From NCBI GenBank assembly GCA_911728435.2, contig OU452206.1, positions 8,152,297 through 8,216,296 of the forward strand: a DNA stretch of 64,000 bases, read 5' to 3'. A program made the translations under genes and the position numbers. This DNA comes from Apoderus coryli (taxonomy: Eukaryota > Arthropoda > Insecta > Coleoptera > Attelabidae). A model generated the notes under the pieces. That model was not told the DNA's origin. It saw nothing but the letters and a program-made list of their open reading frames with translations, and did no database searches. Numbering within the stretch: the stretch's first letter is position 1; the number at the start of each line of letters is the position of its first letter. This document shows positions 3,395 through 64,000 of this stretch, one piece after another.

Positions 3395-6300
3395 ATGGGC
3401 AAACCGCACGAGATACTTTTGACATTGACGAGAAGTTCACCGAGCGAACAGTGGGGCTTTAGTTTGGTTGGTGGTTCCGATGTGAAGACGCCCCTTATCG
3501 TCACCCGGGTAAGTTGATATAATATCATAATTAGACTAGAAAATTAGAACCTACATTTTTATTAAAAATAAAAAGAGGACAAGAATTAACTGATTTGATT
3601 CACGAATATTTTCATATTCAGTTTGTTCGTATGTTCCTTATTTTCTATTAATTACGCTATCGCTAAGTAAGAACTTAATTTTATTGTACCCTTTCACAAA
3701 ATACAATATTCTATTACTTTAAAGAAGTAGTAAGCTGTTTCAGCTAGGTTTCAATGACCTTTTAATACTAAACGTAGACATACAAGGTGTCTCACAGTGA
3801 CCACCCAGTAGAATATTTCTAAAACAACTTTGATTTGAATTTTGATCATTCAAGTAACGGTATTTTCAAATATGCTTTATTTAAATGAAATAAAGTCATC
3901 CACGTAACACTTCCGGTTATACTGCGTCAATTATTAAATTATGGTTTATGCCAAATTTTATATTACCTATCAAAAAGTTTTTAGTGAAATTTCCATAGAA
4001 ATGTCTGATTCTGCCGATTCAGTGCGATATTTTGCGATTAAGATATTAATGGAATCAAAAAATTATATTGAAAGTGAAAGATGGACGTTAAAACAGTCTA
4101 TCTTTTAAAATTGAACCCGCATGGTTTAAGAATTTTTGTAGCGTAAACAATTAGGACAGCTTTGTTGCTGTCTATTTCGAAAATGTGCAGTTTTTGAAAT
4201 TTAACATTTATAGTAAAAACAATCAGAATTTAAATAGGGTATGGTTAACATATTATTAGAAGCAAAGCAAGTGTCAAATACTTATACAATATATTTGGGT
4301 TTCTACAGAAATACCACCACTTTTGATTTTTAAATAATAAACCCAGCATAACTACCCGACCTGTCTAATTTCAAAACGAGTTTCATACTGATCCTAGGTG
4401 GCTTTGACTTTCTATTAGAACAATTATCAAAATTTATCATGATTTACTTTTTATTTAGCCCCTAAAGATTCAGTTTGACGTTTTAAGGAAATACACAACA
4501 AATTGACTATAATTGCGCATTTTTTTTTTGTGTTTTTGGAAATTAAAATTTTACTTTCCCACACAGGGGGTATTCTTCTACGATAGCTCCCAAACGCTTT
4601 AACCAATTTGAATTTTGGTATATGAGTTTTAGGCAGTGCTAGAATGAAGCTTAAGCCCTGAGATAGAGGTGGACACAACCACTAAATTTTCATATATCAG
4701 TAGGGGTCGAGTGATACATCATTTTTTATCTGCTTTACAAACGCGAAAATTGCGTTTAAAATAGTAGTTGGAACGTATATATATATCACATTTAAAATAC
4801 AATACGAGTATATAATACATATGGTACCTTCGCTTAGTATGCGGAAGGTTAGGTGTTCGAGTCCCAGCTCTGGTCACACTTTTTTTTCTTGTTATTTTTG
4901 AGTAAATTAATTAGTGTGTTACGTTAGTTTATTGGAAATAATGAAAATAATACAATTATAATAATAATTATTATTAAAATTCTGTTTCGTTATGCAGGTC
5001 ATATTTTTGATTATATTATAACTTGTCGGGAAAGTTTTGGAGTGACACAACCGATTTTTTAGTGTTTGAACGAAAGTCAAATCTCCACAAAATAAGTTTA
5101 ATAGAATTTATAAGCCAGACATGTTTCGGGACTAGACGAGTCCCACCATCAGTGGCAAATAAAGAATCAAAGAAACTTTTCACAAAGACAAGGAATGACA
5201 CCGAAGTCACCTTAAGGAAAATAATTTATTTTAATTCATTGAAAATGTAATAACATAGTTAGGTTTACTATTTTTTCTTTTTGTATATCATTTCGATTAA
5301 ATAAATTATTTTCGGATTCTTATATCTATCGAGCTTGTGCTAGAATTCACGGTCAAAATGGTTGATCAGAATCCGTTAAATAATTTTTAAAATAATTTAT
5401 TTAATCGAAATGATATACAAAAAGAAAAAATATTAAACCTAACTATGTTATTACATTTTAAATGAATTAAAATAAAATATTTTCCATAAGGTGATTTCGG
5501 TGTCTTTGTGAAAAGTTTCTTCGATTGTTGAATTGCCACTGATGATGGGACTGGTCTAGCCCCGAAACATGCTGGCTGTTAAACTTATTTTGTGGAGATT
5601 TGACTTTCATTCAAACACTGAAATTACAACTCCACTTAAGAATGGACTACTTATTAAAATTTCTAGATTGACAAATAACCTGGGAAACATTTATTGGCAT
5701 TTTTAATTGGTACCCAAAAATTTGAAGGACAACCATATAATAATTTTAAAGAGAAATATTCTTAGGATATACGAAAATATTCTTGAATTACATATATTTC
5801 ATTCATCATTTTTCTAAACCCTTTATCGTAATAATTCTGAAACAAATATTATGTTATCCAATTGCAGGTAGCCCTCGGCTCACCCGTACAGGGTGTACTT
5901 CAACGGGGTGACATCATCACCAAAGTTGGCAACTATGATTCGCGCGATATTCGTCACCAAGATGCTCAAAATTTATTCAAAAATTCTGGCAACAGTATTA
6001 GAGTTGTAGTACAACGGTGAGTCAAAAACAGTGTTCTTCCACAATGTTTAGAAAAACGTTGTAAGTCAGTGTTGTGTATCAATATCCATACTAATTATAT
6101 TTTAACTGCAATGCTAATATAACTTATAATAATATTTTGTTGCTAAAATGCTTAAATATAACATTTATTTATTTATTTAGCATTTTTCTAGAATTTCGAA
6201 ATCAATACACCTTCTAAATATAGATTTTTCGTGAGAACGGTTTATAATGCAAATGTAATAATTTGAAATTTTAAAATAGAGCACAATATGAAATCAAATA

Positions 6301-9300
6301 TTATATTTCGTCGTATATGATTATTTTATTTAATTATATTTGACTTATTGGAATTAGATTTTAGCTGTATATTTATTTTTAAATTCAATTGTACACTTAT
6401 GACCATGATTTTTGTAATTCAAAAAAGAAATGCCATAAAATCGTTGGTAAATAAACGTAAACCGTATCAACACAATATCTTGTTTATGAGCAATAAATTC
6501 ACATTTTTTGGACTTCTGCCATATGGATAATGTTAATTAGAATTTCGTAATAAAAATTAGCTTTAATACATGTAATACCTATATAAATAATCATTGAATT
6601 AGATTTATTTTATTCAGGGTTAGGTATTAGTATTTCTTTTGTGGATTAGCTAAAATTTTATTATTATTATTTTTTATTTTTTTTATTTTTTTAGTTTTTT
6701 TTTTTTTTTTGAAAAATTGAACACGTTACAAATTAAAGAGTGAATTAATAATAGGGGACTCAATGAAAGATGTTTGGTCATTCAAGCAAGTGACACTATT
6801 ATTTGACTTAGCCTTCATGATCTCCAGAATCTCCAAATAATTTAAACGGGAGCCCTTGTTACACCTATGTAATAACGTTGAATTATTCAAAACATCCAAG
6901 TTGTGATGTCGCGATTAGATGGTTTGCAAAAGTAGATGGAGTATTAAAAATATCGGTATTCTTATAACGGTTGTAATAATACAAATGTTCCTTGATTCTC
7001 GTAAGAATCCTACGGCCAGATTGGCCGATATAAATGCTATTACAGTCCTGACAAGAAAGTCCATAAACTCCCGAACATTTCAAAAAATTTGTTCTATCTT
7101 TAGAATTCACTAAACAAAGGCTAACGTTGTTAACAGTTCTAAAACTAACGACAATATCCGGAATACTACTTCTTATCATTTTAGCAATCTTAAGACAATA
7201 GCTACCGGTATAAGTAAGAGAGACATATCTTATGTTTTCCACAAGAGGACTTACAACCGTAAAAGAAAGTCTTAATCTTGTATAGAATCTAAAATATAGT
7301 TTCATAATGGTTGGAAGAGGGTAACCATTATTATGTGCTAATTGTTTAATCACATTAATCTCTCTCTCAAACCCATCACCACTAAGTGGTAAAGAAAAAG
7401 CCCTATGAAACAAACAGTTGAAAGAAGCGAACTTATGACTAAACGGGTGGTTAGATTTAAAAGGAATCAAAGTGTCAGTTGTGGTAGGTTTTCTATATAC
7501 CTCAAACTCAAAACGATGCGCTAGAACATGTCTAATAATCCAAATGTCCAAAAACGGAAGTTTGTTGTTAGATTCGAATTCAATTGTAAAATCGATATTA
7601 GGGTGTAGGGAATTAACAAAATTCAAAAAATCAAAAATAACAGTTGGAGTGCCATCAAACAAAATGACACAATCGTCCACTTATCTGTAATAAAATAGAA
7701 TCCTCCCAGCAAACTGAGGGTCACTAAGAAAAGAACACTCCAGATTCTTCATAAAAATTTCAGCTAAAAACGGGGAAAGGTTCGAACCCATAGCCAAACC
7801 CGTTTCTTGTCTATAAAACTTATCATTAAATTGAAAGAAATTCTGTTCCAAAACCAAACCAAGCAACAAACACAAATCGAGTGCAATATGAGTTGGTACA
7901 TTGTTATGAAGAAGCTCATGTCTAACTAAAGAGATGCATTCCTCCGGTGGAATACTCGGGAATACATTTTATTACATTGTTATTAATTAAATAAATTAAT
8001 GAACGGCTTGCTAACTCTTCGTTTGATACAAATATGTATATTATTTAAATTATCTAAACTAACAATACCACCTGTTGTAGAAAGCATACCTGATTTTGTT
8101 TTTTTTTTCTGCAAAGGGCTTTCATTTTACAACTTGCCACCCATAATGACTAGCCATCTGAATTATAGACACGAATTTCGACAGAAACACGTCGATTTTG
8201 TATTTGTTATTATGATATCTGTGATAGCATTTAAAATTTAAACTGCGTTGTGGACTAAAACGCTGCGTTGTCACATTTCAAAAACCCTTCAAAATAGAGA
8301 ACGGATATTGGCGGGTTTTATACCTAGAATTACGTAGTATCTCATAGAAATAAACCAGTTTCTATTATAATAATAATAAGCGTATATTTCCAACAGATTC
8401 ATACAAAAAATCCAATTACAGGAAATCTCTACAACTCAATACTATTATTGCTAATATCAGTAATTACAAAGAACAAGATAAATAAAAATGGAAACATTAG
8501 TGATAATAATAATACTACAATAATAATCACAATAGCAATAAAAATAATTATAATAATAATAAGCGTATATAATAATAATAAACAACAACAACAATAACAA
8601 TAATAAGCAATAATTGCAATAGCCACATACAGAATATTTATGAAAAACACTACATCTATACATACTCACGAAAGAGACACCGCACACTTACAGCAATCAA
8701 ATCATGACTGGATTGAGCTAATTATCCTTGCAACAGAGTCAAAGTACATATCGAATTCAGAACAGTTCATGTTAAAAGTTGAACAAATAAAATAAATAGG
8801 ACTCTGTCGCAGAAGATTTGTTCTTGGAGCATCAGTATAAAACGGCCGACCTTGCCTAGCCGCCAACCTAGGCACCCACATATTTATTTTGCCGACCAGG
8901 TAAATGCAATCCAAATGGCCGTGCAATAGGTTGTACAAAAATTTGACGCCCAGAACCTTTCTCCGAGTCTCCAAAGCTACGATGTCGAAGCGTAAAAGAA
9001 GCGACTCATGATCGGTACCACGGACCGGATAAGCACCATCCCTCCTAAAGGCAAGATATTTTACAAGCCGTCGTTGAATAGATTCAATTGCACTAGTGTG
9101 ACGCAGATACAGGGGGTTCCAAATCACCGAGCCGTACTCCAGTCTAGATCTGACAAATGTGTAGTAAAGCAATCTGAAAGTTGAGGGGTTGTTGAAAAGG
9201 TTACAGTTTCTGATAATGAATCCAAGCATCCTAGATGACGTGTTAACAACATCGTCGATATGTAAAGAAGAGCTGAATTCTTGATCGAACAATATACCCA

Positions 9301-12300
9301 GATCCTTAATATGGTCGTGTCTATTCAGCGAGGCACCATCCAAGTTGTAGTCGAATAAAATAGGACTCTTAGACCTTGTGTAACTAACAATACTACACTT
9401 GTCAGTATTAAGTTGCAGTCTATTGGCATTACACCATCCATTCAAACCATCCAAGTCGCTCTGGAGCGCGGCACAGTCAAGCGCACAGTCTACGACGGTG
9501 TAGATCGTAAGGTCATCAGCGTACGCCAGGCGGCAACCCGGTCGAAAGCCTTCTGGAAATCAGTGTATACGACGTCCACTTGCCCCGCATTATCCAATGC
9601 TTCGCATATATATTGAGAGAAGCTTGACAGATTCGTCACACATGATCGCCCATCAATGAAGCCATGCTGATAGGGTGAGAGCAAGCTTCGGATGGAAGGA
9701 AACAACTTGTTATAGAGAACAATCTCAAATACCTTTGAGAAGTTGCACAGGATTGATATAGGTCGGTAATTATTAACCTGGCTAGCATTACCCTTTTTGA
9801 GGACCGGGGTTATTTTGGCTGTTTTCCAAATAAATGGATACTTAATGGAGGAGAGCATTAAATTATAAATATGAAGAAGATGCCGGGAAAGAGCACCGAT
9901 ACAACATGTATAATTCTTTTATAATCAAGAGGTATACTTTTGTTTTTTGATTTCTTTTACATAACCATTGTGCACCTATTTACCATCGGCATAGTAAAGT
10001 ATTAAGTATTGGATTTATCGGATAAGCCCAATACAGATAATGCCTGATGTACTATTTTGAGTAGTAAGTTTACTTTGGTTGCACCGTTTTCTCTTGAAAA
10101 ATAAATATAGGGCAATTATTCTCTGTCTGGCGATGAACAAATTGTTTCGTTTTTGGCTAATCCATACAGATAATGGACGTATTATATACCATCCATAATA
10201 ATTGAAAGGTGTCTCGGTGTTAACGTATTAGACGTTTAAGGAGTACTAAACAATGGAAATTTGGTTACTTCAGTAGATCAATCTAATCTATACCTACTTA
10301 TAAAATATTTTGACATTTGTGCCACTTCCGCTTATACCGGAAGTTGATACTAACTTTCTTATTTCAAATGGAATGATTAATGACGTTTCATGGCTACCTA
10401 ATTAAAATAAGTAGGTATATGGAAGTAATCCAATGTTTCTTAAAACTTGCTTTTATTTCAGAAACTTTTCAATTTAGGAATAGGAACATGCATATCATTT
10501 GAAAGGGAATTTAAATGTCTTTCAGAATATTTTATAATATACAGGGTGTTTCATTTGAGAAAATTGACTTATGCTTGTTTTTCCTAGTAGATAACAATAC
10601 AGTAGTTTGCGACCACCCTGTAACTTTATGGGTGAATCTGTCAAGATAGTTGGTTTTTCTAAGATATGCTTCATCGGCCGTCAAATTTTCCAGAGTCTGC
10701 CTATTTAGGTAACCAAATGGTGAATATTTTCCAGAGACCTGTTTTGGACCAAAAAAATTCAAAGTTAGTATTTATTCAAAAACAGTTGAAGAAAGGTATA
10801 GGGAAGTGTTCAGAGAAAGTACTCCAAAACAGATAAGGATTCCCAAAATATAATAATATACACGGTGTTCTATTTGGTATAAGAAAGTTGGTAGTATAAC
10901 CGGAAGTGGCACAAAAGCCAAAATATTTTAGAAGTATTGATTAGAATGACCCACTGAAGTAACCAAATTTTCAAAATGATCCGTTTTTACATTTTATTCA
11001 TTGTTTCTTGATTTCGATACAAATCTTTAGACATACCTATTAATGTAGTGATTCTTCTCTTAATGCCTTTAAATAATAATTTTACTCATTTTTTTAATAT
11101 TTAAGGCTAATACCTACTTGTTTACTTCATACCCAAAATAAATTTAAAATCCATGTAATTTATTGTTAAAATAGTTAAATATCAAGTTATCTAATTATTA
11201 TTTTCATAAATTCTTCTTTCCAGAGACACCCCAGCGCGTCACAATACTAGTACAGGATCATCTCGTGCCAGTAGTATCTACAGTCCACTATCAGTCTCAC
11301 CTCACCTGTCACCTAGAGGCGGACAACAATCACTAAATCCAGGCTACAGTCCCGGTGCGCCAGCTCTTACACCTGTTTACACACCTCTAACTCCAGTTGA
11401 CTCGAACTATTTCGACTCCTATGAGTATCAGCCAGGTGGTCAAAATGTTGGATCGGCAGATGTCCATGTCACGAAACAAGTGAGTTGAAAAAAAAAAAAA
11501 TGTTATAATCGTTTCCCTTAGTTGAATTTCAAGAGGGTACTGAGAATTGGTGGTCACACTATATTTAAAACAAATGCGGTGAACAAAATAAGGCAGTGCG
11601 ATTTAATTTTCAATAATTGTCTACATTATTTTAAATTTTAGTATTTTTATTCTAATAAAAATACTAAAATTTAAAACCTGCGTTCCATACGGAAGAAGTT
11701 TATACTGTGATACCATAATAACTGTTCTCTCATGTTAGGGCCCGCTCCAAGGCCGGACAACCCGGACATTGTCCGGTGCGGCATTTTCACTGTCAGAATG
11801 AGAGAAACTGTTATCAATATTAAAATTAAAATATTAAAAATAATAGCAAGCCGCCTTTCGTTTGTAAAAACTTTTCTTATCACTGTTTTTACAAAAATAA
11901 TTGTTTTTGATATACAGTGTCCAAGATTAGAATGCGATAGCATTGCAATTTTGGAAACGATAGGAGTTACAATGTCGGTTAAATTAGAGAAAACTTGTAG
12001 AATTTAAACACTTTTTAAATGGTGTTTTCAAAACTATACTAACTTTAGCCGTTTTCGAGAATTTTTGCGATTTTAGTTTTTATTTATTTTTGACATTATT
12101 TTTACAGATATAAAAAAATCATTAGCACTCTCTCATTGTTCCTTTTTGAAGAGAAAAAGATAGCGTTTACAAATTTTCACTACAACGTTTCTTTTTTGAA
12201 AAACCATCATCAACTTCGTTTTTTTTAAATATGGCCTGGATTTTTATTATTAAATTTAAAGCCATTTTCAATTCAAAAATAGGTGGTATATCACACGTAA

Positions 12301-15300
12301 GGGTTTAAACAAGTTTTCAGTATTTTTAGCAGTTATTTAAACTTATTCAAGAAAAATCTCCATAGTTTGGCACTTAACTGACTGAATTCAGAGTAGTAGG
12401 TTTTGGAAAAATATTCTTTCGTCGTTACTCACAATTATTTATTATTATTTGACAATTTATTTCTGTCTCAGTACAACATTTTATTCTGTACGCGGTTTTT
12501 TAACTTTAGTTGAAATTATTGAAAAAACGCCTTTTTTCAGATGAATGTTTTACGCAAAATAAATGCCAAACTATGGCGATTTTTCTTGAATAATTTAAAT
12601 AACAGCTAAAAACACTGAAAACTTGTTTAAACGATTACGTGTGATATACCACCTATTTTTGAATTGAAAATAGTTTTAAATTTAAAAATAAAAATCCAGG
12701 GCAGTATTTAAAAAAACGAAGTTGATGATGGCGTTTCAAAAACGAAACGTCGTAGTGAAAATTTATAAAAGCTATATTTTGTTCCTCAAAAAGTAACAAT
12801 GAAGAAGTGATTTTAATTTTTTTATATCTGTAACAATAATGCCAGAATTAAATAAAAACTAAAATCGCAAAAAATTTAACCATTTAAAAGGTGTTTAAAT
12901 TGTACAACTTTTCTCTAATTTAACAGACATTGTAACTCCTACCGTTTCCTAGATTCCAATGTTTTCCCGTTCTTATCTTAGAGTGTATATAGTTTAAAGA
13001 AAATAGGTAATTACGAACACAATTAATTATTCAATAATAATTATTAAATAAGGACACGGATGTTATTTACACTACCTAATATAACCGCGCATCGCATATA
13101 AATGATTTTAACATAATTTTTATTTTATTTAAAAAAATCTGGCGGCAAATTGTCTGTTTGTCCGGGGTGACATGAACGCTAGAGCATGCCCTGCTCATGT
13201 AGAACTGAAAATTGTTTCATATTTTAACTGCTGAAATTCTTTGGAAGCCTGTCGACTTAATGCGCATGCGTGTCCGAATCGACCCCATCACAACATGTTT
13301 CCTAGGCTCCACCAAAAGCTACTTACATGAATCTGGAAAATTTTGAAATAAGAGTTTTGATACTGGTCAAAATCGGCAAGTTCGAACAGTTGAACTAGAA
13401 GTTGGAATTCTAAATATTGTCGAAACTCAAGCTGAGACAAGTACAAGAAAAATTGCTTCAGAGTAGAGATGATGTATATGCTATAAGTTTTATATTCTTA
13501 CCACATAAAGAGGGTTCAGGTTCTCTTACTAAGTTATTTCAATCGGTTTTTTACTTCAAAAATGAATGGCCTCTTATTTTGTCCGAAAGTTTTGTTCTCA
13601 GATACAGCTACTTTCTCAATAGACGCGATTCTGAAAATCCATAACAGGCATGTATGATGGGCTGAAGCAAATCCACATTCAATTACAAAACATAAGCATC
13701 AGTTCTTAACGAATGGATAGTAATTGTTGGCGAATATTGCATGGGCATACATTTTCTGCCTTTGCGATTAAATGGGAATATTACGGATTTGATAAAACTT
13801 CAGTTCATTTCTTTGAAATCTACTTAAATTTCCGTTCTCAATTTGTCAATGTTAATGTAATATTATCGGTGGGTTAGGTGTTGGATTAGGTTGGGTCGAG
13901 TATTGCATTTACGGTAATCTTATTTTAACTAAGTTTTTAATGCCTTACTACCACTGCTATGTATTCACACATTTAGGTATATATTACTTTCCCCGACCAG
14001 GGAAAGTATTGTGAAGCGCTAAAAAATTTTTTGAGATAAAGACGGATATATCCATAGTGAAGTTCCCTGAGGCGATTAAGGACATTTCCAGATAGAAGTC
14101 TGTGTGTGTGTGTCTGTATGATTCTTGCACGATAGCGCCTAAACGCTTTAACCAATTTAGCTAAATTTTGGTGTATGAGTTTGGGAGAGTCCTAGGAAGA
14201 ACCCGTTAGTTTTGGTTGAAATCGCGTAAGCCCTGTGATAGGGGTGGATACAACCCCTAAATTTTCATATATCAGTAGGGGTCGAGTGATACATCATTTT
14301 AAAGCCTTTTTTATCTGATTTACAGAGATAGGTGACTTTTGATATTTGCCCCCATAATTTTCGAGAAAATAGCGTTTAAAATGTCACCAGTGAGTTAGTT
14401 GGAACGTATAGATATAACAAATAAAATACAATATTTATTATCGGGTCTCTGTTTGGTCATTGGTAGGGAGTTCGCTCCGCATGCGGAAGGTTACGGGTTC
14501 GAGTCTGGCCACACTTTTTTTTTCTAATTTTTTAATACAGTAGTTTGTTACGTTAGTTTATTGGAAATAATGAAAATAATACAATTATAATAATAATTAT
14601 TAAATTTCTGTTTCGTTACGCAGGTCATATATTTTTGATTATATTATAACTTGTCGGGAAAGTTTTGAAGGAAAAAGTTGTAGAGACGGAAAAGTTTCTA
14701 AATGAATCGCGTTATCTAACTTTTTTTTTCTGAACTGTGGTACAAGTTTATTAAAACTACAAAATATGTTAAATACGCATATTGATAACAGTAATAGGGA
14801 AAGGCGTCTAATATCGATCATCTTAATATTAGGCAACCCTACAACACTATAAATTGATACAATCTGTGCTGGCATCTCAATTATAAACAGCAACAATGGG
14901 CAGTTTCATTGTAATGCTGGGTAGTTCTTTTTAATATTTTTTCCGCTCACCAAGTACGTTATGTAATTGTGAAGGTTAGAAAATCCGAAGCTACTTTAGT
15001 ACTAATATTGAATGGTACCCCGAGGTAGTCTATACCGTGTTTATGAAAATTTTAATTCTTTGTGGTTAGGAGTTGTTTATGTCAACACCACGGCGTCCTT
15101 GCGGCGGGTAAAATCGGCCAGCGTGACCGATATTAGCCGCATATGATTGATTTTACGCTCATTACCTCTGAACGTCACGTTTTTCAATTAATTGAAGACA
15201 GCATATAGCAAAGAATGCGATATTTATATGAAATATGAAGTCTCATCATTATAATAAAATTGATGTGAGGGACATTGCAGAGCTTTTGCTAATGCGTACG

Positions 15301-18300: not shown

Positions 18301-21300
18301 GCTGTGCTGCAACTCGAATGTACAGAGGATATGCCCTCTGTGATGGCACCGGTCCAAGTGGCGCTAGTCTCGGATACTGGGAACGTAATTCACCACATCC
18401 ACGACACCTCAAGCAACTGCTCAGCTACATGACCGGCGGGTTAAACTGCGCATGGCATCGTCTTGGATACTAAAATGAGGGTCATCTGATTCCGACGCCT
18501 CAATTGAGTTGCCACGTTACATGCTCCCTCTCAAGGGATATGCACATGGATAATTCAAAATCAAAAAGTGGAGTAGACGTCGCGTCGTTTGATTTCGAAT
18601 ACATGCCACTCCTCTTGGCAATGAATTACTTCAGCAAATAAAATCATCTTCCTACAGTCATGTAAACAATTTATTATTATACAGTTATAAAAGCAGATAA
18701 TTCCAATTATTGTAAACTTTCAAGTAAAAAGTATCATTATTATACTTTCAGTTTTCTTTTTAAGTCTTTTTCTAATTTCATTGGAATACGCAACAGTAAA
18801 ATTCTAAATTTTTATTATTGTGCAAAGATTATATTCTGAGAATTCGATCGCCGCGATTTATTGTGCAACAACCTGTATTAATAGTATTTTCGGAAACACA
18901 TATATTCGAAAACATTAAGTTTCTATTTGATATGCCAACATTTCTCACAAATGTCCAAGATAAGGGGAGCCAGTTCAGTGATTTAGGAAACCGTCCGTAA
19001 GAGAAACAAAAGTCGGTTACTCGTTGAAAGTTTTGTAAAATATGTTCATAACCTTTATAGTTGCAATGGCATAAGAGATAATGTAAAAAAAACTTTAAAA
19101 TAAACTAAGCTTTACCGATGTCAATGTCAATAGACAATTTTTGCTTGATTTGGAACTTTGGACGCCAGATTAGCTTCTTCACTTTGTTTCGGCCTGGATA
19201 GCGTGGTCAAATTTTAAAATATCTTTTTTCTGTCTCGTGATCCTTCATGGTACAACAAAACACGGTAATTCTTATGGTTTATGATGATTCTCTGGCAGTT
19301 TTAGAATAAAATGTATCAAATCAAAATCATATTCGGTGGATAATTTATTGTAATTAAATAATCAATTCGTTTAATGTTATGGAAATACGAGTAGTTGACG
19401 ATTTATCCAAGTCGGGCTGAGCCTGTCATTGTACCTACTAAGCCTAAGATTTTTTAAAAACCACTTTGAAAAACTTCTTACTTCATTAAAATTTTAAAAA
19501 GACATTTACGTTTTTTATGGTGAGTTTATTGTACCTAATAAAAGATTTTCTTTTCTTATTTCAAGAAATATGTCTGTGTTGATTTAATTGGGACCATATT
19601 TATAATATTTTCGTCTTGTAAATAGGTGGATAAATAGGTGTATGGTAATAAACAGCTTTATAATAATGCTAATAATTTTTTGGCCCGTTTCATGCTTGTA
19701 AACAAGAAACCGATGAAAAATTGACGTCCGAAGCTTTACGAAAAACGTGCAAAAATAAGTAGCGCCTACACTTTTTTGGGCGAGTCAGTTTTTCACGAAA
19801 ATTCAGATCAGTTGTAATAAAAAATAATATATAGTCGAACATTTGTATATTGTTAGTAACAGGATTTAATAATATAGGTTTCAAGTAAAATCTCTGTTAA
19901 AGCAATTTTTTTACCGAGAAGAAAATGTTGTTATCAAGAAGTTTTAATAATGAGAAATTTAATGACGAAAATGAACAAGAGGCAGCAAAAATGTGGGTAA
20001 GGTGTATTTTTTAATAATCCTACTTTTTATATCAAAAGTTTACAAAAGCGTAACTACAATTATTTGCTTTTCAAAATTCTGTGAATGAATAGTATAAAAA
20101 AAATCTTCAACAATGTCATTACGTCATAAATTTTCTATATTTACCCTACTGTACGGGATAACAAACTGTATTTTAAAAATAGTTGAATCCGTTTATACAT
20201 AAATAAAACTGGAATGTAGTGATATTAGATAATTTAATTTTAGTATATTTTATTCAATATGTACAAAAATTATTTATACATACAGGGTGATTGTGTGATT
20301 GTACGACTTCCGGTTAGGTATACCGGAAGTTAATACCAACTTTCTTATTTCAAATGTAACATCCTATATATTACCATGTTTTTGGATTCCCCATCAATTT
20401 TGGAGTATTTTAGTTTAAAACTTCCCTATATTTTTCATCCATATCTGAGAGGAGTATCACATAAATATGTGAAATAAAACACGTCTTCTCCACAAATTAG
20501 GTCCTTTATATGTTAAGAAAAACTTAGATTAGTCTAAAATAAAAATTAATGTAACGATTGTTATAAAGAGCAAAATATCTTAAAATTCTTAATAATCCTT
20601 TGATGAAAATGAAAAAGAAAAAATGCAAAATAACACGAATAATTAATTTATTTAATATTTCAATAAATTTAACTTAATACCTACTAATGATATAATTATA
20701 TAAAAAGGAAAAAACCACGAGGTGGATGTTTTGGATCTTGAAGTATAAATTTAAAATCTAATGTAAAATTTAAAATCCTAAATAACATTTGAAAATAAGA
20801 CAATTGTAATTATGTGTTAAGTTTTCATTCTAATATTTGAAATTACCAACTTTTAATGAAATATTATAATTTAGGAGCCCCTGAAGATGGAATGGGCTTG
20901 ATTCCGAAACATGTCTGGCGCGTGTTGAGTTTGTCTTAACATATAAAGGATCTAATTTGTGGATTTGTGTGTTTTATTTCACATATTCCCTATATTTATC
21001 TCGAACTGAATAAATAACTTATTTTGAATTTTTTGGTCCCAAACAGGTCTCCGGAAAATATTCGCCATTTTGTCGGTTGAATAGACAAAATCTTGAATTT
21101 TGGAAGGTAGTTCAATAACATCTTAAGAATATTAACTATCTTGAAAATGGCACATCTTGTATATTATCAAATATTTAGTGCTTACAATATTAACTGTGTC
21201 CAAAAAATCTGATATTTAAATGTGCTGCAAACAAACTAAATAAAGTTTTTATGGATGTCATATAAATTTAAACTATTAACACTAATGGACTGACAATACT

Positions 21301-33899: not shown

Positions 33900-33919
33900 T
33901 ACAAAAATAAAAATATTTT

Positions 33920-36900: not shown

Positions 36901-38016
36901 TTAAGTTTCCGAAACATGTCTGGGACCACAATTTAAATTTGAACATATATATGAGTAATTTGGTGGAGTAGACGCAGTTTTCTTTGTATATTATAATATT
37001 TTATTTTATGTATATTAAAAAACTCATTTTGAAATTATAAATGTCTACACCTTACCAAAAACAGAAATTAGGTACATTAGTCAAAATTCCAAATGATGAT
37101 ATAGCTTGTTTAATTCAAATGGAACACCCTATATATTATTTTGATATTAGATGATAAAATTAGTAGTAGTATTTATCATGCCGATGGTTTTTATATTCTC
37201 ATTTAGACTTATGTTTCCAAAACCCATTTCATGTTACGCACACAGAACTGTTAAACTGCTAAAAATTCTGAACTTTGAGACACGCGAACTGGTTTGGAAT
37301 TGACCCGCGAAGAAAGGTAATATTCAGTGAACGTTTTTGGTCAGGGTCAGAGTAAATGACAATAAATAACGATACAAACAACTATATAAATGCAATTTTT
37401 ACTACTAAGGAAAATGTATTATTAGCAATTAGCAATTTGCAGATACCTTTGGTAGATATTTCTTCTTCTGAGTATCGTTCCCATTCCTATTAATTTGGTT
37501 GACACATAAATTAGAATGAGCTCCATAGCTCAGTGCTATCGCTGGGCAAGCCCTAGATAACTCTTCCATGATAATAACATGATCAGTGTATGATCCATCT
37601 GAACCTCCATAATCACTGTTGGCAGTTATTCCTACCAATGAGATCATATAGTAAAGAGAGGATTGTATCAAATCAATGTTTTTTACCCAATGTTCCCAAT
37701 GAACCTAGTTTCTTCCAAAAGTCTCTTAGATCGGGAAAATTATTGATTCTATCGATTTCATTTGCTTTGGATGCTAATTCTTTTTGTGCAAAGTTAAATA
37801 TTGTATTTCTCAACTAAAATTAAATTTTGTACTTTATCACATAAAAAATATCAATTATTAATACCTTACCTGAATTTGTTCAGAAGTTAATCCAAAAATA
37901 TGTTCATCAATAGGGTAATTTAGCAAAGATGCTTGCCTAATATGGCAAAAACTTAAAGAAATATGATTTTTGTTGAAATTTTTTAAAACACAATTACCTA
38001 ATACTTTTAAAGCCAT
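33920..38016 (-). CDS. IVD: Isovaleryl-CoA dehydrogenase, mitochondrial, 8 exons
   Basis: Exons in gene order: 38016-37870, 37813-37687, 37631-37447, 36371-36210, 36089-35897, 35554-35400, 35340-35172, 34053-33920. They join in frame to 423 codons plus stop, the usual length. The enzyme oxidises isovaleryl-CoA to 3-methylcrotonyl-CoA in leucine breakdown in the mitochondrial matrix, passing electrons to ETF through FAD. The N-terminus ([14 protein letters not shown]...) is basic and lacks acid residues, as expected of a mitochondrial presequence. Acyl-CoA dehydrogenase signatures are [13 protein letters not shown] (FAD/substrate), [20 protein letters not shown] and [13 protein letters not shown]. 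The IVD-specific catalytic base is the Glu of [10 protein letters not shown] (residue about 283); the position that carries Glu in MCAD is Ala/Gly in the LYEIGAG loop. No damage is seen in the reading frame. Confidence 0.97.
36581..36622 (-). ncRNA. Hammerhead ribozyme motif, inactivated
   Basis: CTGATGA, bulged T and stem II GGAAA/TTTCC are kept, but GAAA is GAAG and the following CATGTC is CATGGC. The A15.1-U16.1 pair and the NUH triplet are therefore lost. Confidence 0.7.
36883..36924 (+). ncRNA. Hammerhead ribozyme motif, intact core
   Basis: Stem I CCA/TGG, CTGATGA, bulged T, stem II GGAAA/TTTCC, GAAA, ACATGT and the GTC triplet are all present. It is antisense to IVD (which is on the minus strand) and is the inverted partner of the dead site at 36581-36622. 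Confidence 0.85.
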
Positions 38017-51419: not shown

Positions 51420-51423
51420 GATA

Positions 51424-51986
51424 CAAATTTAAAACATTTTTCAACATACGAAGAATATTTGCGAATAATTCGACTAAAAATCAGTAACGTTTGTGTTATT
51501 TGAATATGTCAAATTTTTTGAAGTCCCTTAACATCACTAGGATCACTATACAAATTTATGTATAAATGTATACATGTCAGTCATCTCATCGGTGACTGAC
51601 ATGCACTTCATTTATGGACTCGCTTATGGCAATGCATTAGAAGCTAGGCGGTTGTACACTGAAACATTTCCTCAGCGTATAACTCCTGATTTTCTGATAT
51701 GTGTTCTGTACGCAGATGTTTTTGGCAAAATGAACTGACTGATGGCTTGTTGAGCCGAAACTAGTTTCCTTTCTTATAATTAAATTAAAGATTTTGTGGA
51801 GTTGACTTCGAAAGTTTTTGTTTGTTTTCCTTTATATGAAACTGACACTCCACTTTGATGATGGATAATTTATTTCGTTTAATTTTATTTATTTGTTTTT
51901 ATATTGCTTCGAAATGTTAATGTTATTTTTAGTTGAATTATTCGCAAATATTCTTGGTTTGTTGAAAAATGTTTTAAATTTTATAT
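51424..51986. repeat. Foldback containing a degenerate hammerhead unit and family tail
   Basis: AAAACATTTTTCAACATACG and GAATATTTGCGAATAATTCG (51430-51470) recur inverted at 51930-51985. Inside, 51748-51778 reads CTGATGGCTTGTTGAGCCGA with AACTAGTTT following: stem II GGCT/AGCC and GAAA are present but the core box is shortened. TTTTGTGGAGTTGACTTCG follows, then the tail ACTCCACTTTGATGATGGAT at about 51847. A hammerhead-family unit seems to be nested in, or part of, a larger foldback. Confidence 0.6.
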
Positions 51987-52089
51987 AAATGAAGCAACAT
52001 AATAGGAAAATAATACAAGAAATAAAAAAGTTGTAGGTTTAGTTTATTTATTAAATTACAGTCAGTGCCGTAATTTTTTTTTGTCAATC

Positions 52090-56600: not shown

Positions 56601-59600
56601 TAGGCTAAGAAATGTATGCAATGTTAAATCTAGAAAATGCCACTCCGAATTCATATGCTGATTGGAGTCAAATATCAATGAAAATATATGATGATGATGA
56701 TGCATGAAAAATATCAATTTTGGCACTCGAAAGAAGTAGTCCATATCGAAGTGGAGTGGAATAATTAAATATTCTTGAAATAAAAGTCGACCTCCACACA
56801 ATAAATTTTAATAAATATCTCCAACAAATTACATTTGTCACCATACATGTTTCGCAGCACCGGGCTGCATCATCAGTGGTTATAAGAGATTCTTACGAAA
56901 AGCTATGTTATTTATTTACTTAGTATTTATTATTTATGGGAAATTCATTTATGAACTCACTGTATGAACAAATTTTTTAATAATTATTTAGTCATAAAAA
57001 TTTAAGTCATAAAAAATTGTTAAATTAAGTGTGATACATGTTAATGCATTAAAATTAAAAATCAAAACTTACATCATTTCTAATGTAAGTCTCTGTAATA
57101 CTTTTTTCTTTTTGTAAATCATTGAAGTTAAATTCTTTGTCGATAATATTATACTTGATTGATAATTTAACAATTATTTATGACTTAAATTTTTATGACT
57201 AAATAATTATTAAAAAATTTGTTCATACAGTGAGTTCATAAATGAATTTCCCATAAATAATAAATACTAACTAAATAAATAACATAGCTTTTCGTAAGAA
57301 TCGCTTATAACCACTGATGATGCAGCTGCGAAACATGTATGGTGACAAATGTAATTTGTTGGAGATATTTATTAAAATTTCTTGTGTGGAGGTAGACTTT
57401 TATTTCAAGAATATTTTATCAATTTTGGCGTCTATTAATAGTATAAAGAGTGGAATTGGACTTCCAAAGTCAATGCGGATTCAGTTCTAGTGTTTATGAC
57501 GCAACTGTATGTACCGTCCCGATTTTCTTTAACTAATTCTAGAAATATAGCCTTCGATAATATCACGATCCAGGATGTCTTTGAGAAAATTTTGCGAAAT
57601 CCTGACAGAACATCGATCGGTCCGGACAACATGCCTAACTTTTTCATTAAGAGATGCATATTTACTTTATCGATACCACTTCAGAAATTGGATAATATTT
57701 CATTAAGGCAAGAAAAATTTCCAACCAGCTATGTTGTGTCTATTCATAAGTCTGGTAGCACTGAAGATGTTTCAAACTACAGAGGAATTTGCCATCAATC
57801 AGCGATAGCGAAAATATTAGATAGTCTCTTGTTCGATCAACTTCAGTGGAAGTGTAAAGACTTTATTACTCAAAATCAACACAGAGTTGCCAAAAATAGG
57901 TCTACGACAACAAATTTGGCTTCTTATGAACTTGAATTCATGGACGCTGTGGATCAGGGTTGTCAGACGGATTCGGTGTATACCGATTTCGCAAAAGCAT
58001 TTGATAGGGTGGTAAACTTCGATATTTTGTTAGCAAAACTGCGAGCTTTTGGATTTTCTAACCCCTCTGTAACATGGTTGGAGAGTTTTTAAAGGGACGC
58101 ACCCAAATGGTGAAAAGTATGAACTAGAAATCCCAGGAATTTCGAGTGACGTCGAGTATTTCCCAGAGATCTCATAGTGCTCCACTCCTCTTCAATATTT
58201 TTATAAATGACATTAGTGACATCTTATGATTTTCAACGCCTAGTTCTTTTGCAGATGACTTGAAGCTATACACAAAAATTACTAGTGATGGTGATGTTAA
58301 TTGCTTACAGAATGATGTGGATGCTCTCTGAGAATGGTCCGTTTCTAATAACTTGAAATTTAATACAGAAAAGTGTTGTTTTATCAGTTTTTTCGTACTA
58401 AATCCAGATTTCCTAGTCAGTATGTAATGAGTGGTGACCAGTTGAAATACGCTAATAGAATTAAAGAGTCAAGAGGAGTCAATTTTTCGGAGAATGTTAG
58501 CTTTAACGACGACATACATGCAGTATCTCAGAGTGCACATAAAATTTACAGGATGTGGGTATATATGTGGATGATACGCTGAATTTTCAGGCCCATTATG
58601 CCTATAATGCAGCTTTGTCCAGAGTCAACATGGTGCTGGGATTTTCGATGAGGACAGGAAGGGACATTACTGATGTCCATACTTTAATGCTTGTATATTG
58701 TTCGCTTGTGTGATCAGTTTTGGAGTATGGTGCGGTAGTCTGATCTCCGTATTACGGCAATTTTAAAGAAAGATTCTAGGCACTTCAGAATAGGTTCATT
58801 AGATTTGTGAGATTCATGCTAACTAGGAATGGGATGGTCCTGCCTACGAAACAAACACAATGTTATTGTAATAGGAAATAAAACGTCTGACTCCACAAAA
58901 TCAATTTAATACATTACACTTAAAGTGTTATGTCCAAACATGTTTCGAAGCTCACTAGCTTCATCATCAGTGGCAAAATTTAGAGAAATTGTATTTGTTT
59001 TCTCTAAATGTTGCCACTGATGATGAAGCTAGTGAGCTTCGAAACATGTTTGGACATAGCACTTTAAGTGTAATGTATTAAATTGATTTTGTGGAGTCAG
59101 ACGTTTTATTTCCTATTACAATACATTCACTCCACTTCAGAATGGACTACTTCTTTAAAATAAACACAATGTTATTTGAAATTAAGCCCTTTGGAAAATC
59201 GTAGAAAATATTTAGGATACGTCTACAAATTGCATATTTCGTTGAATACCTAAATAAAATAAAATACCCTCAGATGTTAGGTCTATTGAAGTACACAAGA
59301 AGTTTGTAAAAACATGTAGCGATTATATATATATATAGATTCTCAGATAGCTTCGATCTGCTCTTCTGAAGTGATGGAAACTTGTTCATTTTTTTGTGTT
59401 GAGGGGGAAAGAAGACGATCTGCAAAGCCGCGCGCCGGTGACGTGCACATGCTTACAGTAACATCAACGTAGGTTCATACAGATATAAAATTATCTAGAT
59501 TTGTAATTTCATTTGATTTGATTAAAGGTGATCATGTTAAAGGTGATCATCTACTTACAAGAGTAGAACTATTTACTTTAAATAAGTTTCCAAAACGATT

Positions 59601-62600
59601 TCATTTCTACTCTTATACTAAATTATAAATATCTTACCGCTAAATGTAGGTTTATCCAGTAAATTGATGGGATCGATTTCAGCTACTTGGAAAGGTAGAT
59701 ATTCTTCTATATTTTTCATCATTGTTGCTTGCCTTCTTGTTAATCGCCTTAATGATACATACATATCTGGACCAGCTGATAATTTTTCTTTCCTATCATC
59801 TTCTTCACTTGAACGTCTTTTATCTTCCTCCTCAATCGCAGGTAATGCACTTATAGATGCTGTTACGCTTCTTTGCCTACGTCTTTTCGATGTATTTCCG
59901 TCAAAAGTAGATTTGTTCGAGTCCAATGTGTCTAGATTATTTACACTTAAACTACGCGTCCGTCTCAACCCCACTGCCTTTTCCGGTGTTGGGAGTAAAT
60001 TCTTTAATGCATTATTTTCTTCTTTGGATCTAGTAATTTCTAACACATCACCCACGCTTTTTGCTTTCTTAGATGTTCTGCTTTTTTTAGTTAAATTAGA
60101 GGTAACCAACTCCTTCAAATTATCAACACTTTTAGCTCTATCGTGTCTCTTGCTAGCAGTTCCAGTATCAGCAACATCTTCAATTGGTTCAAAAACACTG
60201 CTGCTCATATCTAGAGTACTTGTTATGGATATATCAGTAGTATTTAAAATATCTCTTTCATTACTAACACTTTTTCTTCGCAAACTTCTGCGTCTACCAT
60301 TAGAGTTTGTACTGTCTACCTTAATCGTATCAGACGCATCTGCTTCCTTTAGTGATGAAGCATCATCAGGTTTTGTAACGGACATTTTTCTATCACTTTT
60401 GGAATAAGTATACTTGACAAGATTAACGACTAACTCTGGAGACGGAACAACTTCGCTATGAGGTATTTGTACACTTTTATTAAACATTCTTGTTTTAGGA
60501 ACAGCACTTTCGAATGAATCCACTGACTTGGCCCGTGTTCGTGAGTATGTTCTTCTAGCATCGGTAACGACTAATTTTGGAGTTTTAGGATCCAAAGTTT
60601 GTAATTCGACAACTTCCAGTTGCTTAGTGACTGATTTTGAACGTTGTCGGGAATATGTCCTTCTGGGCTGAGTTACAAATAATTTTGGAGTTTTAGGCGT
60701 CAGTGATTCTTTCGTTAATATAGCTTCAATTTTCTTAAGTGAAACAGAGTCTTCCTGTGAGTTTTCTCTACCAGTATTTTGTTTGACAGTACTTTGATCT
60801 GTTACTTTTGAGGTTTCAGCAACTTGATTTGGAGATTCTGATGTTGTTGCAAAACTAGTTCCACTATCACTTTGAAATGAACAATAATCTGTTTGTACAC
60901 TAGCATTTTTGGAAGTACTGTCATCATCAGTATTTGATTCATTAGCTTTTGATGTTATTAAAGCATCTCCATTTCCTTCTGTCATTTGTGCAATGTTTTC
61001 ATCAGTCAACTGTAATTGTGCACTTTCCATCTTTGCGTCTGTGTGTATTTCCGCGGCTAAAGTTACTTGAACACATTTGTTTTTCATATTTTCACTAGAA
61101 TCAGCATTTTTTTCATTTTGTGTTTCTGATAATTCGTAAATAGTTTCCGAATCAATTATTTCCGATTTTGATAATGGGTAAATACCTTCCTCCACTTCCA
61201 TCCCAACATCTTGCTCGAATGGTACTGTGGTTTCAACTAGAGTTTCATGGATTTCTTGTTCTGAAGCTAACATAACAGAATTAGTTTCATTATGCTCAGT
61301 AATGTTCTCTTGAATACTAGATTTTTCAGTTTCAGGAAACTCCAAAATAACATTTTGAGTAATGCCTTCTTCTACAATAACATCCAATTCATCGGTGAAA
61401 GTTTCATAGACACCGGTGTTTAAAACAGATTCCGTGTCGTCTTCTAAACACTCAAATTGGTCAGGTTCTTTTAACTCACAGCCTTCTTCTTCTTCTTCGT
61501 CATCCGAAATTACTTTAACATCGGAACAGTCTTCTGATTTTTTTTCCTGTTCGTCACTATCCTCTTCTTCAGAGTCAGATGTTTCACTCTTATCACTGCT
61601 TTTGCTTCCCGATTCTGAGCTACTATTAATTTCAATCACATCTTCATTAAGTTCTAAATTTTCAGCTTGATTCACAGTATTACCTAAATCAATTTCTTTA
61701 TTTTCGTCATCAGAAAGTTCCGCATATATATCATCTTCATTTGTAGTGTCCAATTGTAGATTCATTTCATCTTCTTCTTCGTTATTATGGCATTCGTATT
61801 CCCCTGCCGAAATATTTAAAGTGTCAACGGTACTCTCATTTAACATATTATTTTCATGTTGTTCCGAAATATTCACAATGTGGTTATGCTCATCTAAATC
61901 AGTACAACCTGTTGCAACTATTGTTTCCTCTTTATCAGTTTCAATATTGGCTTGAATCAGTTCCACAGGTGTACTACTTCGTTGTTCTGAAATATCCTCA
62001 GCATGTTTAGACTCATCTAACCTTGTTGCAACTATTGCTTCCTCTGTATCAATATTGGCTTGGCTCATTTCCATAGGAGTACTACTGTGCTTATCATTTA
62101 TTTCTGTTAACACTTTAGTGTAAGACATGTAACTTTCGGATTTACTGTAACTTGTTTGTTTGACTGATATATGTCCTGCCACCTCTGGTTGATCTAAAAT
62201 TGATCTACTAAGAGATTTACGTCTGACAATATTTATAATTTTAGAATCTGCAAGAGCTTCTCGAGAATCTGCAATAGATTCGCTGCTAGTATTTGATGTA
62301 ATATCAGGAGAATAATTTACAGAATCTGATGACAAATTCAAATCTATTGATGACAGACTACCATCTGAAATTTTTGGTTTTATAAGTTGTTTAGAAAATC
62401 TATTTGACTGATCGTTATTTTTATCATTATGTGAGCGTAATGAAGTATCGGTAAGGGAATCATCTGTACATGTCGTTTTTGAATCATCTGTTCGAGAGAC
62501 AAATATTTCAAAATCCATATTCTTTGTCTTAACGTCAGTTTGCTTCATAGATTCTGTTGTACTATTGAACGAAATACCATGGGACGACTTTAATGGGTTA

Positions 62601-64000
62601 GAAGAAAGATTTAAATCTATTGATGAATTTGTGGTGTCCTCCATTGTAGATGACACTTGAGTTAATCTTTCGTTGTCTCTATTTGCTGTTTTGGCTTTTA
62701 AAAGTACATTTCTCTCTAAGACCGCTCTAGATAATGATTTTCTAACACTTCTTCTAGGTGCAGGTGATCGTTGTGCTAGTTCTACAGAACCCGAAGTAGT
62801 TGAACTGCTAAGCGTATCTCTTGATTCCGATTTCTCTTCACTTTTAGCTCTAGATAAACGGGGGCTGGACCGTATTGGTGAACTTGATACCAAAGACCCT
62901 GTAACAAATAAATTGTTAAATTTTCATTGATTAATTAATTTAACTAAATATGTCAATCAAATTTGCTTTTCTCATTCTCAAGAATTTGTAGTAACAAGAT
63001 AAAATAATATATAAATTATGTATTAAATTGTGAACAGAATTAATTAAAAACAAATTGTTGACATTGACGAAACGTTTTTTTAGACATTGAATAAAATCTT
63101 CAATCATTGCACTCCAAATGTGATATTAAACATAAACTGGGACCGTTAGAGCACGTGTAGGTCTCCATAAAAATGTTAACATTTTATTTGTAATGAAATT
63201 CGACTAACGCTCGATGCACATTTTGAAACTTCCATGGACGTAATGGTAATGGAAGTAATTCATGCTGGTTAAATATTATTTTCACCCTTTTTAACCCCCC
63301 TGCACATCCTATATATATTCATTTCAAATCAACTACGAAAGCCATGTACACCTTAATTGTATATCAAAGTTTATTTTGGCCAAAATTCATTGGCAAGAGA
63401 AAAATTATTGAAATTTTTGAAGATGTAATCGATACATTACCTGTGGAAAGGAAGATTAAATGCAATGAAACTATCACTATCACTCTACAAACTGTTCACT
63501 CTTTTTTGAAAGTGGAACATGTTTCGGGATGTCTTAGATCCCATCATCAGTACCGATGAGATCTTATATCCTACAACTCCCTGGCCCTTGATTTCGATGG
63601 ATTAATGAACTCCTTCGAATGTACTGAACCTGGATAATTTTGCCAAAAGTTCTGAACTTTTGTCGTCATCCAGGTTATACCAGTTGCAGGTTCTGGTCCG
63701 ATAAATTCTCCCAGAACTTCTGCCTGGAAAACAGTAGCGTGGGAACTCAGACATTGGTTTTACCCCGTTAGTTCTAAACAAAATACTCAGTATTTGAGGT
63801 GATGACGCATTTTCATTAGTATAGCCTTTAAAATTTACACAATTTAAAAAATCTGCACAAGCTTATTTTATAAACTTACGTTTGTAACTGCGTCGTGACC
63901 TCGGTGACTGCAATAAAGGTGAAATTGCCTCTTTTGGTTCGTCTACATTGTTAGTTCCAACATTTTCTGTCGTTTGAATATCCACCAAAATATCTTTCTC
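53669..64000 (-). CDS. Large Ser-rich, acidic, probably nuclear/chromatin protein (C-terminal part; N-terminus beyond the window)
   Basis: Exons in gene order: 64000-63880 (continues upstream), 62898-59638, 55930-55729, 55621-55452, 53869-53778, 53722-53669. They join in frame to about 1300 codons and a stop. No enzymatic domain is recognised. The 3.26 kb exon is disordered-looking: an acidic block (SDSEEEDSDEQEKKSED, then SDDEEEEEG), and a basic Ser/Arg half with repeated units PKTPKLFVTQPRRTYSR, PKTPKLVVTDARRTYSR and the weaker PSPELVVNLVKYTYSK, plus RRKSLSRSIL, RRKSVSNERD and RRTRSLSVNN. These look like phosphorylation-prone S/T-P and RxxS sites. The C-terminus is strongly basic (TPKRTSKGRKRSQ, ERKTRAKKK). 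The composition recalls the C-terminal region of ELYS/AHCTF1-type nucleoporins or other chromosome-bound proteins, but this is a guess. The 3.7 kb intron between the exons at 59638 and 55930 holds a LINE split by two foldbacks. Confidence 0.85.
54715..55012 (+). repeat. Possible 3' end of a LINE with ATT tail
   Basis: A T-rich stretch ends with GGACAATAAACGCTATTACC and then ATT repeats, the look of a LINE 3' UTR with a polyadenylation-like AATAAA and simple-repeat tail. No coding part remains, so the call is tentative. It lies in an intron of the large Ser-rich gene. Confidence 0.35.
55021..55276. repeat. Short MITE with TACAGGGTG ends
   Basis: TATACAGGGTGATTCATAAC at the left and GAAGCACCCTGTACAG at the right form inverted termini about 255 bp apart. 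Confidence 0.6.
56840..56880 (-). ncRNA. Hammerhead ribozyme motif, best-preserved foldback copy
   Basis: Stem I ACCA/TGGT, CTGATGA, bulged T, perfect stem II GCAGC/GCTGC with loop CCGGT, GAAA, ACATGT and the GTA triplet. Nothing in the core deviates. Confidence 0.88.
57310..57343 (+). ncRNA. Hammerhead ribozyme motif with collapsed stem II
   Basis: All core boxes and stems I and III match the site at 56840-56880, but stem II is reduced to GCAGCTGC, which leaves at most a 3 bp stem with a 2-nt loop. Confidence 0.75.
58934..58973 (-). ncRNA. Hammerhead ribozyme motif, intact core
   Basis: Stem I CCA/TGG, CTGATGA, bulged T, perfect stem II GAAGC/GCTTC with loop TAGTGA, GAAA, ACATGT and the GTT triplet (allowed by the NUH rule but usually slow). 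Confidence 0.85.
59014..59053 (+). ncRNA. Hammerhead ribozyme motif, intact core
   Basis: The inverted partner of the site at 58934-58973, with the same stem II and GTT triplet. Confidence 0.85.
63515..63553 (-). ncRNA. Hammerhead-like motif, stem I weak
   Basis: CTGATGA, bulged T, perfect stem II GGGAT/ATCCC, GAAA and ACATGTT are present. The flanks that should form stem I (GGTA and CCAC) pair poorly, and no foldback partner or tail was found. It is probably a decayed solo unit, in an intron of the large Ser-rich gene. Confidence 0.65.

Follow-up and report, generated by a model that had tools for sequence, protein, structure and literature searches.

We analysed a 64,000-nucleotide stretch of the genome of the beetle Apoderus coryli (contig OU452206.1 of assembly GCA_911728435.2, positions 8,152,297 to 8,216,296; GC content 29-35%), hereafter the window, which carries six foldbacks, A to F, each built from two inverted arms with a hammerhead ribozyme motif in one or both. 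A sequence-only reading had described these as a dispersed, coding-free family with one additional solo unit. A pattern search placed the motif, all six foldbacks and the solo unit where that reading had put them, and the starts it gave for C (36473), D (42582), E (56725) and F (58868) each lie directly 3' of a target-site duplication (TSD). No match to the coding sequence of Penelope-like elements (PLEs) was found inside any of the six, as had been claimed. From their organisation, the window foldbacks are nevertheless best read as PLE insertions, in which the 5' leader, the ribozyme and the first codons of the open reading frame (ORF) were copied twice, head to head. They are listed here without a strand for the foldback as a whole, plus and minus referring to the individual hammerheads:

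5057-5653, foldback A: two inverted leader arms with outward hammerheads at 5120-5152 (minus) and 5539-5571 (plus); tail at 5630-5653, right end; no TSD recognised.
20437-20985, foldback B: hammerhead in the right arm only (20881-20913, plus, CTGAAGA); tail at the left end, read by eye; 15-bp TSD with 1 mismatch.
36473-36992, foldback C: hammerheads at 36587-36618 (minus) and 36887-36918 (plus); tail at 36478-36501, left end; 15-bp TSD with 1 mismatch.
42582-43384, foldback D: hammerheads at 42655-42685 (minus) and 43242-43272 (plus); tail at 43354-43377, right end; arms of 391 nt (extending into the flanking TSD), 99% complementary, around an 8-nt centre; exact 13-bp TSD at 42569-42581 and 43385-43397.
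56725-57416, foldback E: hammerheads at 56846-56876 (minus) and 57314-57337 (plus); tail at 56733-56756, left end; exact 13-bp TSD.
58868-59161, foldback F: hammerheads at 58939-58970 (minus) and 59017-59048 (plus); tail at 59130-59153, right end; arms of 125 nt around a 10-nt centre; TSD with 15 exact bp.

A common feature of these foldbacks is the construction of their ends. A GTGGAG box stands at 11 of the 12 ends, the right end of B reading GTGGAT, and a tail of about 40 nt occupies one end of each foldback (right in A, D and F; left in B, C and E), which contradicts the earlier claim that the subfamilies share little outside the ribozyme. TSDs of 13-15 bp were recognised in five of the six, and a flank match score of 12 or more was reached by 13 of 19 elements as against 5 of 342 mismatched flank pairs.

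The hammerheads of the window are real. They follow the order stem I (3-6 bp), CUGANGA, an inserted U, stem II, GAAA, helix III and a GUH triplet, with helix III reduced to one C-G pair and an A-U pair around a 2-nt loop, and are thus minimal type I hammerheads, in which the core CUGANGA, GAAA and NUH and the three helices are present and a U is inserted before stem II. The layout first proposed, CTGATGA-T-stemII-GAAA-ACATGT-NUH, needs correction in that GAAA and CATGT are contiguous and cleavage would come after GUH. A covariance model (R1) built from 19 hammerheads, all from loci outside the window, found 12 window sites at E<=2.2e-6, namely 11 in foldbacks and the solo site, where ten had been counted, together with a 13th site at 51725-51776 (plus; E 7e-4). 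Weaker matches lay at 31325-31380 (minus; E 0.019) and at two further sites (E 0.8 and 2.2). The single site of foldback B has the variant core CTGAAGA and the left site of foldback A has CTGATGG. Rfam returned no match in the window at gathering score, hammerhead families included; at E<=10 it gave 18 weak matches, mostly microRNA models on the palindromes, with one type III hammerhead (31338-31390; 29.3 bits against a gathering score of 48.5) outside the foldback-family sites. Covariance models, to which the sequence-only reading had looked for support, thus gave it in the PLE form of R1 and not in the forms held by Rfam.

The motif is widely dispersed, as had been supposed: a strict pattern occurs at 4218 + 4233 = 8,451 places in the 428-Mb genome, while the reversed control pattern occurs at none on either strand. 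For most copies this pattern fixed CTGATGAT and GAAACATGT, leaving H, stem I and stem II as the free tests, though the P1 hammerheads introduced below were found independently of it. Stems I and II covary. Among 19 distinct sequences from outside the window, 94.1% of cells pair (72.9% after shuffling) and both sides have changed in 42 cells (11.6 after shuffling), and sliding the partner by 1-3 columns lowers pairing to at most 44%. Compensatory change in stem II, inferred earlier from six window sequences, is borne out by 73 distinct sequences among 100 listed places, all in the first 4.5 Mb of contig C1, with 94.5% standard pairs against 66% (maximum 73%) when shuffled. Of 52 arms examined, 42 have standard pairs at the first three positions of stem I and 50 carry the GUH triplet, which the plus site of foldback A and the minus site of foldback C lack. 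Folding energies of single hammerheads were unremarkable at two window sites (z about -1) and lower for P2 (z -2.8) and P3 (z -3.0); a hairpin between box and tail was not significant in the three cases folded.

PLE coding sequence is present in the window as one fragment:

6738-7968, minus strand: PLE coding fragment of family P1, with YVDD reverse transcriptase and GIY-YIG endonuclease; for the greater part about 97% identical to intact copies.

A search of the genome for such sequence gave at least 146 matches (145 scored out of 3088 candidates), which by identity form a group like the window fragment (P1) and others near 46% (P2), 44% and 43% (P3). The ORFs of P1, P2 and P3 have an RVT_1 domain with the YVDD motif as well as the GVY...Y(I/V)G...EH motifs of the GIY-YIG endonuclease; the Pfam GIY-YIG model was sub-threshold for the window fragment (18.6 against 22.6 bits) and not among the Pfam matches of the P1-P3 ORFs. 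The P3 protein has 41 related proteins, the best 43% identical, with named relatives including Cordylochernes, Heterobilharzia, Rotaria, Eurosta and Musca. A hammerhead lies downstream of the ORF in each of the three families, with TA as loop III in P1. The link to Penelope that the sequence-only reading had drawn is supported by the layout itself, since foldback, ribozyme, box and tail recur in ORF-bearing PLEs (L040-L043) and in 20 P3 pairs with or without an ORF. The palindrome L040 spans 6402 bp at 99.94% identity and has the P3 ORF in its arms and outward hammerheads, L041 is a shorter ORF-bearing element and L042 has unequal arms. The pseudo-long terminal repeats (pLTRs) are tandem or inverted with an optional tail of 30-40 bp, a property by which PLEs are recognised.

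The coding families also reveal what the tail is. The sequence found at one end only is ATGGACTACTT in P3 and ATGGACAAATTTG in P2, and in two P3 copies whose leader runs on, the ATG of the tail opens the ORF (MDYFFKMNEASQ); the ORF of L043 starts MDKFVDL. The tail therefore equals the ORF start in P2 and P3 (MDYFF, MDKFVDL), for which reason a reading of it as an independent signal was rejected, and arms terminate either immediately ahead of the ORF or a short way into it. Moreover, L066, an element of family D with an exact 13-bp TSD, holds between its arms 223 residues of a PLE ORF C-terminus, 70% identical to P3. On this sequence evidence family D belongs to PLEs, while families A, B, C, E and F would be assigned to them only by their shared ribozyme, box and tail.

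Each paired insertion carries, with a single exception, exactly one tail. This held for 67 of 68 pairs typed at both ends, comprising 19/19 in a first set, 25/26 further family-D pairs, 6/6 P1 pairs and 17/17 further P3 pairs (20/20 for P3 when three from the first set are included), where free choice of two sites at each end would leave one tail in about half of the pairs. The first set consists of nine contig C1 loci, the six window foldbacks and L040-L043. Dropped from it were C1 loci with one recognised end (L002, L004, L005, L006, L044, L047, L048, L049, L051, L053, L054, L055, L057, L058, L060 and L061; L058 has hammerheads at both ends and is incompletely typed) and L008, which overlaps L007. 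Left out of the family-D count were D itself, which belongs to the first set, one C37 copy regarded as a segmental duplicate of the other, the two rows of the nested element C5:7247551-7249024, C7:31607665 (partner end unmatched), and 7 solo matches and fragments. The P3 count leaves out rows that were solo or had no partner, and among its 17 pairs C1:34004513 and C13:4350853 are diverged. Tandem P3 and P1 elements were typed at their outermost ends, and the tails of foldback B, L043, L045 and L046 were read by eye.

Family D shows how the arms are delimited. Searching with the foldback D arm gave at least 72 matches; the DNA searches scored part of the candidates (40 of 1255 for the D arm, 40 of 678 for P3), so family counts are lower bounds. 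The matches end at 376-394 or at 415 and beyond in 67 of 72 cases, 26 of the 72 begin at query position 5, a common 5' end, and 34 adjacent pairs are oriented (-,+) in 31 cases, (+,-) in one and (--) in two. One arm often reaches the common 5' end with its partner truncated, and the long arm may be the tailed or the untailed one. In L001, L069 and L070 the second arm amounts to hardly more than a tail, whose sequence is absent from the other arm; it ends a short way beyond the inner start in L069 (position 370) and in L070 (position 360). In 20 of 22 elements (24 minus L069 and L070, which share too few columns) the two arms diverge from each other by less than the median distance to other elements, and the arms were mutually nearest in 12 of the 22 and tied in 5. 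It is therefore likely, as far as sequence can tell, that both arms usually share a source, whether a single RNA or several RNAs of common origin. L068 (C5:7247450-7249120) is a nested palindrome of four leader pieces with one 16-bp TSD at the outermost ends, which points to repeated template jumps during a single insertion.

Further information on the template comes from six short P3 copies, L092-L097, from which exactly a 61-nt GT-AG intron (GTGAGT...TTTTTCAG) is missing, in both arms of L092, L093, L094, L096 and L097 and in the sole arm of L095, 11 arms in total. The exact spliced junction occurs at 11 places in the genome, all within these six copies, and the exact unspliced junction at 32. 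ORF-bearing P3 copies keep the intron, as does the L099 arm, which begins near the same leader start and continues into the ORF, so that splicing and short length coincide among P3 copies. Because precisely a GT-AG intron is absent, the template of the short copies fits a spliced sense mRNA, and an antisense template would not readily explain the removal of a sense intron. P3 leader copies begin near a TCAGTT motif, which we take to be initiator-like. A single intronless source of the spliced foldbacks, suggested by their differences from L040, was considered and rejected, since an A-run difference is also found in the unspliced L041 and L042 and a G-to-A variant is private to L092, where an exact pattern finds it in both arms and nowhere else in the genome. 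Close to the centre of one spliced copy, L096 (C5:28344850-28345460), lies a stretch of 60 A residues, read as T on the opposite strand. As L092-L097 are spliced leader-only copies of a coding family, coding-free foldbacks can, by their sequence, be direct by-products of a coding PLE.

Across these elements each arm runs outward through the 5' untranslated region and the minimal type I hammerhead to an inner end just before the ORF or an outer end a few codons inside it, with the arms head to head, direct repeats of about 12-19 bp flanking most elements, and one inner and one outer end making up paired insertions. We hypothesize, with a probability of roughly three in four, that the foldbacks are insertions of endonuclease-bearing PLEs made by two-sided target-primed reverse transcription that begins at a neighbouring pair of internal start sites. 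The PLE protein would cut the target on both strands, and the two 3' ends so released would prime reverse transcription within the leader, one at the inner and the other at the outer start site. Both cDNAs would then extend towards the RNA 5' end, often halting early, and their far ends would be joined in the middle. Use of the leader-proximal pair of start sites would yield a coding-free ribozyme foldback, whereas a longer transcript (tandem or read-through) copied from the next pair could yield arms carrying the ORF. In a 2024 study (PMC11167929), a purified PLE both cut and extended the two target strands, initiating at two neighbouring internal sites between which the tail lies; taken with the present tail counts, use of each start site once per paired insertion is the simplest reading. 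A broader proposition is that paired twin priming is the standard mode of PLE integration, with one sense mRNA copied twice, each target strand priming at a different one of the two start sites, so that all paired insertions would be head to head with exactly one tail, and with leader-only foldbacks as the commonest product; we offer it tentatively, at a little under even odds.

The conserved pairing has a bearing on what the ribozyme does. Family-D arm ends fall within 12 nt of the predicted cleavage site in 3 of 34 cases against 2.3 expected, so that hammerhead cleavage as the setter of the RNA 5' end is unsupported in that family, in agreement with insertion in vitro, for which the accessible account describes cleavage as dispensable (PMC11167929). 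Both start sites are downstream of the ribozyme, which is kept in the copied leaders, and its cleavage would therefore be dispensable for template use. Because its pairing is conserved, the ribozyme is predicted to matter in some role apart from insertion.

Other routes to such structures have to be weighed. Self-priming, proposed in 2013 for bdelloid Penelope elements in an account whose accessible part calls for tests of it (PMC3846280), would have one cDNA or antisense RNA fold back and copy itself into a head-to-head palindrome. The 8-10-nt centres of the near-perfect palindromes D and F, a small snap-back piece in L070 and the private variant shared by both L092 arms are all in keeping with this route, yet an antisense RNA would have kept the sense intron that is gone from 11 arms, the tail-only arms of L001, L069 and L070 are not contained in their partners, the long arm may be tailed or untailed, and the near-invariable single tail is left without reason. 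We regard self-priming as quite unlikely. The sequence-only reading had favoured a non-autonomous branch. Foldbacks of a true branch of this kind would be independent units, transcribed as such and moved in trans in the manner of retrozymes or short interspersed elements (SINEs). That idea is disfavoured by the layout common to ORF-bearing PLEs, by the PLE ORF in L066 of family D, and by the six spliced P3 leader copies, which have no common change marking one non-coding source; nor does the window contain the unit-length tandem array typical of retrozymes. In its favour, a PLE protein match was present in only 3 of 25 sampled hammerhead loci (1.8-3.6 kb each), and 26 of 72 family-D matches share a 5' end. 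The evidence for a coding parent covers D, and a trans-mobilised non-coding family may exist among A, B, C, E and F; overall a true branch of this kind appears unlikely. Inverted repeats with target duplications could also suggest DNA-transposon foldbacks or miniature inverted-repeat transposable elements (MITEs), whose hammerhead-like sequence would be a terminal binding motif instead of an RNA. Such elements would not account for a tail that stands at one side and is identical with the start of a PLE ORF, two covarying helices with GUH kept, variable arm truncation, or the spliced P3 copies, which exclude such an origin for P3 unless they are artefacts; this origin is barely credible.

Several observations nonetheless weigh against two-sided priming from paired start sites. 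By the flank score, 6 of 19 elements lack a convincing TSD, foldback A included. The pair C20:839722/841479 has two tails, with 1.3 kb lacking a PLE match between its arms and no detectable TSD, and may be two insertions. Sixteen of 25 sampled loci are single-ended and were left out of the tail count, and L005 is seemingly tailless at both ends. In 5 of 22 elements (L079, L080, L084, L091 and foldback D) the arms are not nearest to each other, and those of L080 (C5:4830030-4830850) differ at 13 of 294 positions (4.4%), one being closer to another element, which suggests from sequence that two RNAs were used. The near-perfect palindromes (L040 and L041 as well as D and F) and the L070 piece fit fold-back copying too. 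Finally, in the accessible description of the Anolis element PAc in vitro, start site use is alike on both strands (PMC11167929), and there is consequently no known enforcer of the one-inner-one-outer arrangement.

In addition to the foldback sites, three hammerhead-like sites stand apart in the window:

63506-63559, minus strand: solo hammerhead-like site found by R1; stem I unpaired, no recognised box or tail; weak.
51725-51776, plus strand: 13th hammerhead-like site found by R1, of P1 form (loop III TA), followed by a box and a P1-type tail (read by eye).
31325-31380, minus strand: separate hammerhead-like site found by R1 and Rfam, with a canonical junction lacking the inserted U; doubtful.

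The first is the solo unit placed at 63515 by the sequence-only reading, which was right about the site, although as a unit it lacks a paired stem I and recognised ends. The second looks, by its sequence, like a 5'-truncated leader copy with the remnant of a hammerhead; it sits in an inverted repeat at 51425-51981, between the arms of another inverted repeat of 57 nt. The third has a 6-bp stem I (TCACCA/TGGTGA), a GTC triplet and no associated box or tail. Pattern scans gave no locus in viral contigs and one in prokaryote genome contigs, L009 (JAKSDK010001231.1), a small contig filed under a Phycisphaerales metagenome-assembled genome, where a weak PLE match is flanked by inverted pLTR-like arms that hold a CTGAAGATG hammerhead; this contig is probably misbinned eukaryotic DNA. 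A PLE protein search of viral contigs found no relatives. Elsewhere in the window are long inverted repeats without a hammerhead match, MITE-like (12062-12873, 25153-26219 and 28107-28301), reverse transcriptase pieces of non-LTR look (8702-9918, minus), a DDE_3 transposase fragment (1689-2183, plus), an acyl-CoA dehydrogenase domain (35229-35702, minus) and an uninterrupted frame of 1101 codons (59618-62923, minus), acidic, rich in serine and without a Pfam match, which may be an exon of a host gene.

Much of this architecture has precedents, cited here from the accessible parts of the sources. PAc of Anolis likewise combines an ORF for reverse transcriptase and GIY-YIG endonuclease, a hammerhead in the leader/pLTR and a tail set by two internal reverse transcriptase start sites (PMC11167929); its ORF begins at stem II, whereas here it begins in the tail, about 90-110 nt past the ribozyme core. 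Inverted pLTRs with an optional tail on one of them are already known from the Pen families of Adineta vaga (PMC3846280), and Penelope/Poseidon-type endonuclease-bearing PLEs form head-to-head palindromes with short TSDs (PMC11167929, PMC3846280). They differ from the present elements in that most sampled hammerhead loci here lack a PLE coding match, the intron has been spliced out of leader-only P3 copies and is retained in those with an ORF, and the one-tail rule has been counted. In LINE-1 twin priming, both target strands prime on the RNA and an inversion results, as a minority outcome. The present insertions resemble it in having two target strands that would prime on RNA and differ in their fixed internal start sites and usually overlapping arms. 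The minimal hammerheads known from PLEs are likewise of type I with a near-absent helix III (PMC7761336, PMC6155905, PMC6466107). The U after CUGANGA, present here in 19 of 19 aligned copies, most of them found with a pattern that required it, may set ours apart. The retrozymes of animals and plants are also non-coding hammerhead copies with possible trans mobilisation, in tandem or LTR-flanked units that give circular RNA (PMC7229834), in contrast to the inverted leader copies with PLE ends described here.

Minimal hammerheads in PLEs and their dispersed non-coding copies are thus already known (PMC6155905, PMC7761336), and the accessible literature describes thousands of such copies in animal genomes (PMC7761336, PMC6155905, PMC6466107). 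A strict one-tail count, tail-only arms and spliced leader-only PLE copies were not found in the literature searched, from whose scope subscription papers mostly fell outside. In the 2024 study, so far as its accessible text goes, internal initiation on both strands was established in vitro and the later steps were unvalidated (PMC11167929). Thousands of leader-type copies constitute a genomic record of PLE integration, with fixed ends, one tail, unequal arms and spliced templates. More generally, our results suggest that the minimal hammerheads scattered in non-coding DNA may largely be leader-only PLE insertions.

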